Shown here: in pieces, positions 33,107 through 36,008 of the stretch | Position numbering within the stretch: position 1 is the stretch's first letter | Layout: the number at the start of each line of letters is the position of its first letter | Source of the DNA: Flavobacteriaceae bacterium | Lineage (GTDB): Bacteria > Bacteroidota > Bacteroidia > Flavobacteriales > Flavobacteriaceae | Assembly (NCBI GenBank): GCA_009827225.1 | Contig: WUAI01000024.1 | Location: 1-49,529 of the forward strand | Reading direction: 5' to 3' | DNA length: 49,529 nucleotides | Position numbers and translations under genes: made by a program | Notes under the pieces: model-generated | What the model was told of the DNA's origin: nothing | What the model saw: only the letters and a program-made list of their open reading frames with translations | Database searches by the model: none

Positions 33107-33178
33107 CAAAAATGGAGAGTAATATGGAGTGCTTTGAATAAGGATTTAATGTCGGAAATATGAGGGTAAAAAACGCTT

Positions 33179-33619
33179 CTAACTTCTGCCTCGAGTCATA
33201 TCCACGAAGGTCACCTGTTTGGCAGGGGAATCAGCCGAGATAGACCGCTTCTTACGTTGCTCCCTAATCTCATCATCATAGCTTAAGTAATGGTACAATA
33301 CAACGAAATTACCGTCATGATCTTCCGCTGTTACCTCAATCTGGAATTTACCCCAGGTCCAGATCACAATTCCGCAGTCGGGATTATCAAAACTTCGTTC
33401 TACTATTTTAACCGGATCACTAAAGGTTTCATGAAGTTCATACTTCACCCGTTTAATAAATGGAACGTCTTTGCCCGTTAAAGATATTCGTACTCTAAAA
33501 AGAGGCTTCTCGTGAGACTTAGGTTTCTTATAATAAACATTGAAGGGATTATCCGAATTAGGCATTTCCGGATCGAAAACCGTGTCCTTAACTCCAATAT
33601 CGTAGGCTCTATTTAACAT
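33179..33619 (-). CDS. Prokaryotic YEATS-domain protein
   Basis: 146 aa, soluble, no signal peptide. Residues about 41-113 read as a complete YEATS beta-sandwich: FRVRISLTGKDVPFIKRVKY, then ELHETFSDPVKIV (LHETF 62-66), IWTWGKFQIEV (86-96), DGNFVVLYHYLSY. In eukaryotic YEATS readers the equivalent LHxSF and xGxGxF positions build the aromatic pocket for acylated lysine; here His63, Phe66 and Trp87/Trp89 occupy similar places. The ligand of prokaryotic versions is not established. The N-terminal 40 residues and the basic tail (REQRKKRS) look flexible. It follows a three-helix membrane protein by nine bases and is almost certainly in the same operon. Prokaryotic YEATS domains are, as I recall, found in predicted signalling or conflict systems. 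Family assignment good, function unknown. Confidence 0.82.
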   Translation of the reverse strand: MLNRAYDIGVKDTVFDPEMPNSDNPFNVYYKKPKSHEKPLFRVRISLTGKDVPFIKRVKYELHETFSDPVKIVERSFDNPDCGIVIWTWGKFQIEVTAEDHDGNFVVLYHYLSYDDEIREQRKKRSISADSPAKQVTFVDMTRGRS

Positions 33620-33628
33620 TATTTATTT

Positions 33629-34156
33629 TTATTCGATCTCAATATCAACATCATCTACTCCCTCTGTCGAGGCTTCTTCATCCTTAGCAGTTTCGTTTTT
33701 CTTGGACGGCTTAGGTTTTCCCTTCTTCTGAATGGATTCCGGATTGCCCTTTGGAGTCACATTGGACTGCGTACTTCTCGCGGCAGACTCACCGTAATAA
33801 TAACCAATAATCGAGCCTAAAAGACCGCCTAAAGAAGCAATGACCAGTTGCAAAGCATCAATTTTTTCCTGGTAAACGTCACTTGAGGTCACTGCAAAAA
33901 TACTCAGGGTCACAAAAAGAAGCACTATAATAAGTGCTAAGAAATGCTTAAAATCATTGATAATATTGACAAAGATTTGTGTGATGATATAAGAGATACT
34001 ATGATCTTGTTTCCCGGTGGAGCTAACCGACTTGAATCTACCCCATCCAAAAATTTGTGCCATCCAGCGCAAACATAAAATGAAGACCAGTAGCAGTAAG
34101 ATTAGAACCAATACACCATTCACATGCGCCTCGAGGAAATAAAAGAAATCATCCAT
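33629..34156 (-). CDS. Three-helix membrane protein with charged C-terminal tail, partner of the YEATS protein
   Basis: 175 aa, not a family I can name. Hydrophobic helices are visible at about 14-30 (GVLVLILLLLVFILCL), 71-90 (HFLALIIVLLFVTLSIFAVT) and 101-121 (ALQLVIASLGGLLGSIIGYY). The last ends in GYYYGES. After this comes a Lys-rich then Asp/Glu-rich tail (about 129-175), which is probably cytoplasmic and flexible. A membrane anchor next to a soluble YEATS reader resembles a split form of a membrane-plus-YEATS architecture. It might serve as anchor, oligomeric scaffold or effector; nothing catalytic is visible. It is the first gene of the pair and has its own candidate promoter. Confidence 0.8.
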   Translation of the reverse strand: MDDFFYFLEAHVNGVLVLILLLLVFILCLRWMAQIFGWGRFKSVSSTGKQDHSISYIITQIFVNIINDFKHFLALIIVLLFVTLSIFAVTSSDVYQEKIDALQLVIASLGGLLGSIIGYYYGESAARSTQSNVTPKGNPESIQKKGKPKPSKKNETAKDEEASTEGVDDVDIEIE

Positions 34157-34184
34157 ATCTTTAATATTGAGGGGAGCAGAAACT

Positions 34185-34214
34185 TAAAGGTACAAAACTT
34201 TCTTTTTTTTGCAA
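34185..34214 (-). promoter_or_regulatory. Candidate promoter (TTG-N19-TACCTTTA) of the membrane protein-YEATS operon
   Basis: On the minus strand TTG (34212-34214) precedes TACCTTTA (34185-34192) by 19 bases, one base off TAnnTTTG. Transcription would begin about 20 bases before the ATG at 34156. Confidence 0.5.
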
Positions 34215-34290
34215 TAGAGATTCTGTAATCGTCATCATAGATATTGATAATTTTTGTAAGTTTCAGAAAAGATAACAGACCTAAAACTAT

Positions 34291-34995
34291 ATGTGTACCG
34301 TCACTTTTTTACCGAGGAATAATTCGGAATTCATATTGACTTCGAATAGGGATGAGGCCCCTAACAGGGCCACGCTCATGCCAGATTTTTATAGCGTGAA
34401 CGGGAGTCATCTATATTTTCCGAAGGATCAAATTGCCGGTGGGACATGGATAGGCACCAGTTCCAAAAACCGTGTGGTTTGTTTGCTGAATGGCGGCTTC
34501 GAACCTCACGAAAGACGAGCTGAATATCGAATGAGCAGAGGACTCATAGTGACCGAATTGCTCACATCCGAGAATGCCGAGGAGACTCTTAACGGTTTTG
34601 ACCTGCATGATATAGAACCCTTTACTTTGATAGCTGCCGATTGGAATGACGATCTCCAATTGTTCGAACTGGTCTGGGATGGAGAAAGGGCGCATCTTAG
34701 TAAGAAACCCCTCGAGCCCACAATATGGTCTTCTTCTTTGTTATATACTTCTGAAATGAAACAAAAACGTGAGTTGTGGTTCGATGTTTTTCTGAAAGAT
34801 GTGGAAGTTCCTTCAGAAGATAACATACTGGATTTTCATAAGAATGCCGGAGAAGGCAGTTCCGACTATGACCTTATCATGGATCGGGGATTTGTAAAGA
34901 CGAGGAGTATCAGTCAGGTGCGAAGAGACCATACAAATACTGTTTTTCGTTATGAAGATTTGAGTTCCGAAAAAGTTTCAATCAGGGAAATATGA
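34291..34995 (+). CDS. NRDE-family (TANGO2-like) Ntn-hydrolase-type protein
   Basis: 234 aa. It starts MCTVTF, placing Cys at position 2, where Met removal would expose an N-terminal nucleophile. The family signature NRDE is at about 19-22 (TSNRDEAPNR), followed by FPKDQIAGGTWIGTS and VVCLLNGGF, both typical. Proteins of this family (human TANGO2 is a relative) are thought to adopt an Ntn-hydrolase fold; the substrate in bacteria is unknown. The protein is cytoplasmic by sequence. Its last four bases overlap the start of the next gene (ATGA), showing translational coupling. It is divergent from the YEATS operon across 134 bases. Confidence 0.9.
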   Translation: MCTVTFLPRNNSEFILTSNRDEAPNRATLMPDFYSVNGSHLYFPKDQIAGGTWIGTSSKNRVVCLLNGGFEPHERRAEYRMSRGLIVTELLTSENAEETLNGFDLHDIEPFTLIAADWNDDLQLFELVWDGERAHLSKKPLEPTIWSSSLLYTSEMKQKRELWFDVFLKDVEVPSEDNILDFHKNAGEGSSDYDLIMDRGFVKTRSISQVRRDHTNTVFRYEDLSSEKVSIREI

Positions 34996-36008
34996 ACTAC
35001 ACAGGCAAAATAATTGTACTGGCCTATCCGGATACGTTTGTCACCATGAGTGATGAATGGATTTGCAAGTTTCTTCCATTGGTTGGATTGGGAACCCAGA
35101 AATATATCAAGGCCGGACATGCAGCCCTGATCCTCGTGGAGAATGAGAGCGGCATGGCCCGTTATTATGATTTTGGCAGATATGTAACTCCTGCGGGCCA
35201 CGGCCGGGTGCGTGGTAGCAATACCGATGCTGAATTAGAAATACCGTTCAAAGCAATCCTTGATTCCGGAGATGAACTGCAAAACCTTGATGAATTTCTT
35301 TTATGGCTGGATGCGAATCCGCAGAAAACCCATGGTGAAGGGAGGTTACTGGCTTCCGTATGCGACGCCATCCATTATGAGAGTGCCCATGGCTATATTT
35401 CCAATCTTCAAAAAAGGGGAAGTATTCCCTATGGAGCTTTTCATAAAGATGGAAGTAATTGCTCACGATTTGTGACAGACACTATCCTGAGTGCCACACT
35501 CGAAAAAAGGATCATCAAGGCATTGAAGTTTAATAAGAGATTTACCCCAAGTGCAGTGGGTAATGTCGAAAAGGCCGCACCATCCAGCAACGTTTGGGAA
35601 GTGTCTGGCGGACAAATAAGTCCTTTCACGAGTTCTGCGTTTAAGGAGAACCTCGTCAATTATTTTCATCGAACCCCACATTGGGGTCTGAAATCGGTTC
35701 CACGGGAAACGATGCCGAATGCGGTTCAAAAACTTGAGGGTATAGGTAGCAGTGCTTATTTTTATCTTACTTCGGAATCAGGTCTGGGCAAGGCCGAGGT
35801 GCGTATAAGACGTTATAACGATCTGGGTGAAATGGATTTCGACGGAGTATTCTTCTCGAAACATTTCCGAAGAGAACTGCCCTACACTTTCACTTACGAT
35901 TCTCATTGCGAGTTTTGCCACGTACTTCAGGATGGTCACCTGATTCAACTACAATTTGTCAAGAAATTTTCTGAAGTTAATTCTGCGCAAAAGGTGCGCT
36001 CAGCTTGA
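34992..36008 (+). CDS. Permuted papain-like protein (DUF6695-like), possible amidase or peptidase
   Basis: 338 aa, cytoplasmic by sequence. Near the N-terminus is AGHAALILVENESGMARYYD with His43. About 115 residues later comes DGSNCSRFVTDTI with Cys157. The order His then Cys, with GHA followed by a YYDFGRY strand, is that of circularly permuted NlpC/P60 (YiiX/LRAT-like) folds. I infer a thiol hydrolase or acyltransferase; the third catalytic residue is not identified. The C-terminal third (GLKSVPRETMPNAV, YFYLTSESGLGKAEVRIRRY) is of no family I know. The DUF number is from memory. It overlaps the NRDE gene by four bases and its 3' end overlaps convergent apaG by 32 bases. Confidence 0.75.
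   Translation: MNYTGKIIVLAYPDTFVTMSDEWICKFLPLVGLGTQKYIKAGHAALILVENESGMARYYDFGRYVTPAGHGRVRGSNTDAELEIPFKAILDSGDELQNLDEFLLWLDANPQKTHGEGRLLASVCDAIHYESAHGYISNLQKRGSIPYGAFHKDGSNCSRFVTDTILSATLEKRIIKALKFNKRFTPSAVGNVEKAAPSSNVWEVSGGQISPFTSSAFKENLVNYFHRTPHWGLKSVPRETMPNAVQKLEGIGSSAYFYLTSESGLGKAEVRIRRYNDLGEMDFDGVFFSKHFRRELPYTFTYDSHCEFCHVLQDGHLIQLQFVKKFSEVNSAQKVRSA

Follow-up and report, generated by a model that had tools for sequence, protein, structure and literature searches.

A YEATS-domain protein and a small membrane protein encoded as a gene pair in an accessory cassette of Bacteroidota

The YEATS fold and its pocket

The YEATS domain is known from chromatin, and the way in which its pocket holds an acylated lysine has been described for eukaryotic readers. 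In Taf14, according to the available text of one study, T61, F62, W81 and G82 hold the acyl-lysine, with F62 and W81 on either side of it, and the WG motif of Taf14 is common to the aligned YEATS members except AF9 and ENL (PMC6212594). In AF9, the cage is formed by F59 and Y78, as given in the available part of another report (PMC10138300). The accessible text of a 2021 review leaves open whether acetyl-lysine readers, bromodomains or YEATS, are used by bacteria (PMC8556138). Besides this question, our literature search found no paper on a bacterial YEATS protein, a weak absence, as most subscription papers were outside its coverage. The domain family itself is already known (Pfam PF20305, pYEATS), and what seems to be new here is the pairing of a pYEATS gene with the gene for a membrane protein. 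A likeness is offered by the predicted pore-forming SLATT 2TM effectors, in which, as far as the available text of the source goes, a small membrane protein is likewise encoded beside a sensor gene (PMC7159879). The pair discussed here lies in the window, that is, the whole 49,529-nucleotide stretch of Flavobacteriaceae DNA that was analyzed [Table 1].

Table 1. Features of the pYEATS locus, in positions of the window
Feature	Position	Strand	Description and basis
Membrane protein gene	33629..34156	(-)	175 aa, three-helix; ORF call
Stand-alone pYEATS gene	33179..33619	(-)	146 aa; H63, T65, F66, W89, G90, F92 and an extra W87
A-rich intergenic gap, 9 nt	33620..33628	(-)	Sequence
Promoter-like TTG-N19-TACCTTTA	34185..34214	(-)	Read from sequence, without statistical test
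Inserted cassette, approximate extent	33112..34219		Between pruA and TANGO2; flank alignment; ends uncertain by tens of bases

The pYEATS protein of the window covers the whole of the PF20305 model (model positions 1-73 of 73) with 57.7 bits, about twice the cut-off of 26.9, and it also matches YEATS (PF03366; 29.2 bits, cut-off 22). Its best sequence match in PDB is TAF14b (E 1.8e-4), and YEATS4/GAS41 (E 6.5e-4) and Yaf9 (E 6.1e-3) are also found; the non-YEATS matches are the repeat protein 7rdr (E 0.0018) and two others with E > 0.4. The AlphaFold model, built from 10 paired relatives, has a mean pLDDT of 83.5, with values of 93-97 across residues 41-110. Foldseek gave 58 matches to this model at E 0.001 or better. 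The best 50 of these 58 were listed, and all 50 are YEATS chains or YEATS-holding complexes (best E 1.1e-5), with TM-scores by query length of 0.41-0.49 among the matches listed. Collectively, the sequence matches and the predicted model confirm a YEATS beta-sandwich fold, which an earlier note on this DNA had read from the letters. A signal peptide is absent, as judged by eye, and the protein is probably cytosolic.

The motifs LHETF (62-66) and WTWGKF (87-92) are located where the earlier note had placed them. In the alignments, T65, F66, W89 and G90 map onto T61, F62, W81 and G82 of the Taf14 cage. The aromatic pocket proposed in the note, with His63, Phe66 and Trp87/89, is retained as far as the residues go, but the assignment of the two tryptophans has to be refined: W89 corresponds to the cage Trp, while W87 precedes it by two residues, at a position that is Thr in GAS41 and Yaf9. 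The alignment of the 11 paired pYEATS sequences has 17 invariant columns, and six of these fall within 63-66 and 87-92 (H63, F66, W87, W89, G90 and F92); moreover, position 65 is T or S in all 11. The residues that make up the cage of acyl-lysine readers, a Phe and Trp/Tyr sandwich, a Ser/Thr hydroxyl and WG/YA, would accordingly be represented by F66, W89, T/S65 and G90 in 11/11.

Two marks distinguish the paired clade. One is W87, present in 11/11 paired pYEATS and, by eye, in 0/10 of the unpaired pYEATS that were aligned. The other is position 88, which is Thr in 10/11 and Leu in the remaining one, while GAS41 and Yaf9 have Gly there; a Gly before the cage Trp, a feature of GAS41 and Yaf9 and not a firm reader criterion, is seen in 0/11. 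Both residues adjoin the cage and may change the ligand, and together they could narrow or close the acyl channel. The cage residues themselves may have been kept for folding. Hence, the window protein shares the fold and the LHxTF ... WG cage with the eukaryotic readers (Taf14, GAS41/YEATS4, Yaf9 and AF9/ENL) and differs from them in being without chromatin, in the extra W87 and in having Thr/Leu for the Gly of GAS41/Yaf9. Relative to the pYEATS family, it stands out as a stand-alone protein of 146 aa with Trp at 87 and a membrane partner gene.

The gene pair and its insertion site

The two-gene layout described in the earlier note was recovered: both open reading frames are on the minus strand, with the membrane protein gene first [Table 1], and the 9-nt gap between the genes is consistent with a single transcript. 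The TTG-N19 element in Table 1 resembles the Bacteroidota promoter (TTTG...TAnnTTTG) and may be the cassette's own promoter. In scans for sigma-70 promoters and terminators, no score exceeded those of shuffles; the Bacteroidota promoter type is outside the sigma-70 model.

In the genus search, pYEATS was found in 3/9 genomes, window included, and the membrane gene in the same three. Scanning the genome contigs of 84,980 species genomes with the membrane-protein alignment gave 36 pattern matches, nine of which encode a relative, and in 9/9 of these a pYEATS gene, recognized by alignment, directly follows the membrane gene. Two of the nine were already known as congeners (L032 = G583 and L035 = G156). 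The pair in another family, L044, was found from the pYEATS side, in the search of 395 genomes of the class, and here too the membrane gene adjoins the pYEATS gene. A single-sequence pYEATS scan of genome contigs gave 16 pattern matches and no relatives. The survey of other genomes that the earlier note had proposed thus amounts to 11 distinct pairs in Bacteroidota, and the two genes are paired in 11/11 loci holding a close relative of either protein; the pYEATS of these loci is recognized by Pfam in four and by alignment in the rest. The nine carriers from the contig scan are labeled in their records as Dokdonia, Aureisphaera, Flavobacteriaceae, Lewinella, Saprospiraceae or Saprospirales and Flammeovirgaceae, and the named strains with relatives are Dokdonia pacifica DSM 25597 and Aureisphaera galaxeae NBRC 110018.

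In the other 10 pairs, for which gene starts were set by script or manually, the two genes overlap by 4 nt at one extreme and are 22 nt apart at the other. The pairwise distances of the two proteins are correlated (r=0.85, reached in 0/5000 permutations), a value to which shared descent of the hosts contributes. The membrane gene and the pYEATS gene are one unit. At the same time pYEATS is rare, being present in 4/199 genomes of the family and 9/395 each of the phylum and the class, with the window counted in each; in the class search, eight of the nine matches are over the cut-off.

In the window, the pair sits between pruA and a TANGO2-like gene. TANGO2 is present in 8/9 genus genomes, the window's included, and in 6/6 other genomes with both genes in view, a spacer of 130-233 bp, free of the pair, separates pruA from TANGO2. 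Since they abut without the pair at all of these visible congener sites, the pair is an accessory, inserted cassette; loss in the other genomes would be a less simple alternative. Two of the six pair-free sites are in genomes that have the pair elsewhere (G156 and G583), and in G585 the pair is absent beside TANGO2, with pruA out of view. Aligned with the 142-bp spacer of the closest congener (L055), the left and right flanks in the window score 70 and 73, as compared with 200-shuffle maxima of 49 and 49. This alignment is strongest at the two ends of the spacer, with overlapping weak parts in the middle, and the other five spacers score 27-51 against the window flanks.

G156 and G583 have the pair at a second site, next to a 137-aa gene that is also found in five other genus genomes, the window's included, without an adjacent pair. 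The far-side gene was not found in the flanks of those five genomes, so a clean empty second site was not obtained. Around the cassette of the window only short repeats were found, with no long terminal repeats, and the insert has no transposase ORF. Outside the cassette, a gene for a TseH-like protein (PF25218) with DUF6695 is located at 34992-36008 of the window. This family takes its name from a type VI effector. The gene looks like a core gene here, not an effector, because it is beside TANGO2 in 8/8 genus genomes having TANGO2.

The membrane partner

The three-helix membrane protein announced by the earlier note is borne out by three hydrophobic segments (residues 15-33, 72-90 and 99-117, simple hydropathy) and by a model with helices at 12-36, 54-91 and 95-130, the confidence of which is modest to low (pLDDT 63.1). 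From residue 133 onward the tail is predicted to be disordered (pLDDT < 50). The positive-inside rule would place the tail and the loop that follows helix 1 in the cytosol. Helix 3 carries a glycine zipper, G110-G114-G118-G122 (GxxxGxxxGxxxG), in 11/11 membrane proteins, which makes tight self-assembly likely. The background of this pattern is 17/249 ORFs of the fetched loci, pair loci and duplicates counted, and 16 of the 17 belong to the 99 ORFs with a hydrophobic segment. Moreover, of 22 positions that are invariant in the 11 proteins, 16 are from A101 on.

For the window protein, Pfam gave nothing below E 2.7, NCBIfam gave weak scores only, far under the cut-offs, and a PDB search with the membrane-protein profile found nothing below E 0.11. 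Among the three members scanned with Pfam, Ion_trans was matched (E 0.0013) in the membrane protein of one of two congeners. A SLATT match is absent from the Pfam scan, and with its three helices the window protein differs in this respect also from the SLATT 2TM effectors. A phage family of unknown function with a length of 75 aa, PHROG 38564, resembles helices 2-3 of the membrane protein (window 33632-34156); 10/10 members scanned match it (best E 7.8e-6), and it may be a true relative. Kinship with KwaA of Kiwa was considered and not accepted, the PADLOC matches being weak and scattered (best E 0.0069 for the window protein). Besides the window, the membrane profile has four weak matches in the 395 phylum genomes (E 1.6e-4 to 7.9e-4), which were provisionally taken as chance matches on hydrophobic helices.

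Possible functions and other pYEATS proteins

We consider the pair to be an accessory cassette in which a pYEATS sensor is docked on a glycine-zipper membrane assembly and has a third molecule as its ligand, a reading to which we assign a probability of roughly one half. It builds on parts that are established, i.e., the genes, the fold, the pairing and correlated distances, the cassette insertion, the conserved cage residues and the zipper, and extrapolates from them to physical docking, ligand binding and a membrane output. In this scenario, the membrane protein would self-assemble tightly in the inner membrane through the four-glycine zipper of helix 3, and the soluble pYEATS domain would dock on the cytosolic side of this assembly, as suggested by the pairing and by natural fusions of pYEATS to membrane segments. 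The conservation of the cage raises the possibility that the Taf14-like pocket, with its second Trp and its Thr/Leu for Gly, senses a third-party ligand, which could be an acylated lysine or another small planar group. Binding of the ligand would then alter the state of the membrane assembly, e.g., by opening or recruiting.

The fusions referred to above come from 16 unpaired pYEATS ORFs, 10 from the family and phylum searches and 6 from the class search. In 9/16 of these (L017-L023, L025 and L045), simple hydropathy finds membrane-type segments in the same polypeptide, which indicates that membrane tethering of pYEATS recurs; the pYEATS of L025 is under the Pfam cut-off. In these proteins pYEATS and membrane segments are joined in one polypeptide, whereas the window has two genes, and by eye the membrane parts look unrelated to the membrane protein of the window. 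The L048 protein, which combines DUF7379 with pYEATS and has one hydrophobic segment, was left out of this count, and the unpaired pYEATS of L049 is at a contig end. A single protein of L017 (6971-8944) combines an nSTAND1 NTPase, a hydrophobic segment and, at its C-terminus, pYEATS, and L016 (5264-7829) has a TIR gene, a pYEATS-TIR fusion and a patatin gene in a row, a defense-like cluster. Four unpaired pYEATS are apparently exported, L024 and L046 (by eye), L043 and L047. A peptidase Pfam match is over the cut-off in L047 and just under it in L024, and the presence of pYEATS in such peptidase-like, apparently exported proteins is a counterpoint that makes acyl-lysine reading less obvious there. 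The L047 protein (196-1743) belongs to the papain family of peptidases and contains two stretches of pYEATS; it may be exported, and reading of acyl-lysine would not be expected in such a setting.

The earlier note suggested another ligand, namely acylated lysines in the tail of the partner, which the pYEATS protein would read to give an acylation-controlled membrane complex. In the window protein, the tail is indeed first basic and then acidic and has 8 Lys, it would face the cytosol if the positive-inside rule holds, and the cage residues that such reading would use appear to be retained. One other tail, that of L044, resembles it, with 4 Lys clustered as KKEDKK followed by an acidic stretch. 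What decides against a conserved role of these lysines is the comparison of the 11 members. The other 10 tails have 1, 1, 1, 0, 2, 3, 3, 2, 2 and 4 Lys, each of the eight tail Lys columns is Lys in only one or two of 11 in a gappy alignment, and L030 has kept the pair with a tail that is free of Lys. All 11 tails are net acidic, and their predicted disorder would leave them free to vary. Lysine is invariant at no position of the membrane protein. K98 comes closest (Lys in 8/11) and could be cited in favor of a lysine ligand, though its loop is on the outer side in the probable topology. As a conserved mechanism the Lys tail was rejected, and reading of the partner's own tail is very unlikely.

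A special case of the third-molecule reading is an anti-phage or stress module, in which firing of the pYEATS sensor would release the glycine-zipper protein as an effector that damages the membrane. Prokaryotic YEATS domains have reportedly been placed in predicted immune systems (Burroughs and Aravind, 2020, J Bacteriol), and the patchy, inserted nature of the cassette, the association of other pYEATS of the phylum, by fusion or as neighbors, with TIR, nSTAND1 and patatin, and the weak KwaA scores of some members (best E 0.0017 over 10 members) would fit such a role. However, PADLOC gave no clear model match to a known anti-phage system for either protein: the pYEATS protein has no match at E 10, and no one KwaA model matches more than 3/10 membrane proteins. 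Of the neighbor proteins, taken from 6 of the 11 pair loci, 9/10 are without a match at E 0.001, and the tenth is a LytTR response regulator from L029 whose first 60 residues, probably the receiver domain, match PDC-M60B (E 3.9e-8). No relatives were found in viral contigs (both proteins), in plasmids (pYEATS search) or in phages (membrane-protein search). A defense role is possible by analogy with other pYEATS loci, the neighborhoods examined give it no support, and we regard it as doubtful. The pYEATS protein might instead act on the membrane protein simply as a chaperone or assembly partner with an immunoglobulin fold, its pocket binding nothing. Many beta-sandwich domains serve as protein adaptors, and the pairing and the correlated distances would be explained without a ligand. 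This alternative has to contend with the cage positions, which are, in the alignment, among the most conserved of the protein as six of its 17 invariant columns, and we consider it rather improbable.

The third-molecule reading has a more specific form, a bacterial module for reading acyl-lysine at the membrane. Here, the Taf14-like cage, remodeled by WxWG, would bind an acylated lysine of a third protein, or a free acyl metabolite, and gate the zipper assembly. This form is unlikely, but if true, acyl metabolism would be coupled directly to the membrane by a reader domain that has so far been tied to chromatin. Irrespective of the ligand, Bacteroidota use this chromatin-associated domain repeatedly on the membrane side, and the pair lends itself to testing whether acyl-mark readers occur in bacteria at all. 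A simple binding test is feasible with a small, apparently soluble pYEATS protein that has kept its cage residues, comes with a defined partner and is related to proteins of named strains.

The immediate neighbors of the pairs are varied. Ten were scanned with Pfam, which identified a LytTR regulator, a TetR, a DUF2807 protein, an APH-fold kinase, a C25 peptidase (L034) and a methylmalonyl-CoA mutase (L044) and left four unnamed. Longer operons are possible in single genomes (L051, L034, L036 and L037). In one genome, a connection with acyl-CoA metabolism may exist: in L051 (422-4489), 12 nt separate the pair from a methylmalonyl-CoA mutase gene that precedes it on the same strand. In three Saprospiraceae MAGs (L034, 4922-8492; L036, 2165-5632; L037, 2050-5510), a long ORF on the same strand begins at the end of the pYEATS gene. 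This ORF encodes a C25 peptidase by Pfam in L034, and those in L036 and L037 are alike by eye.
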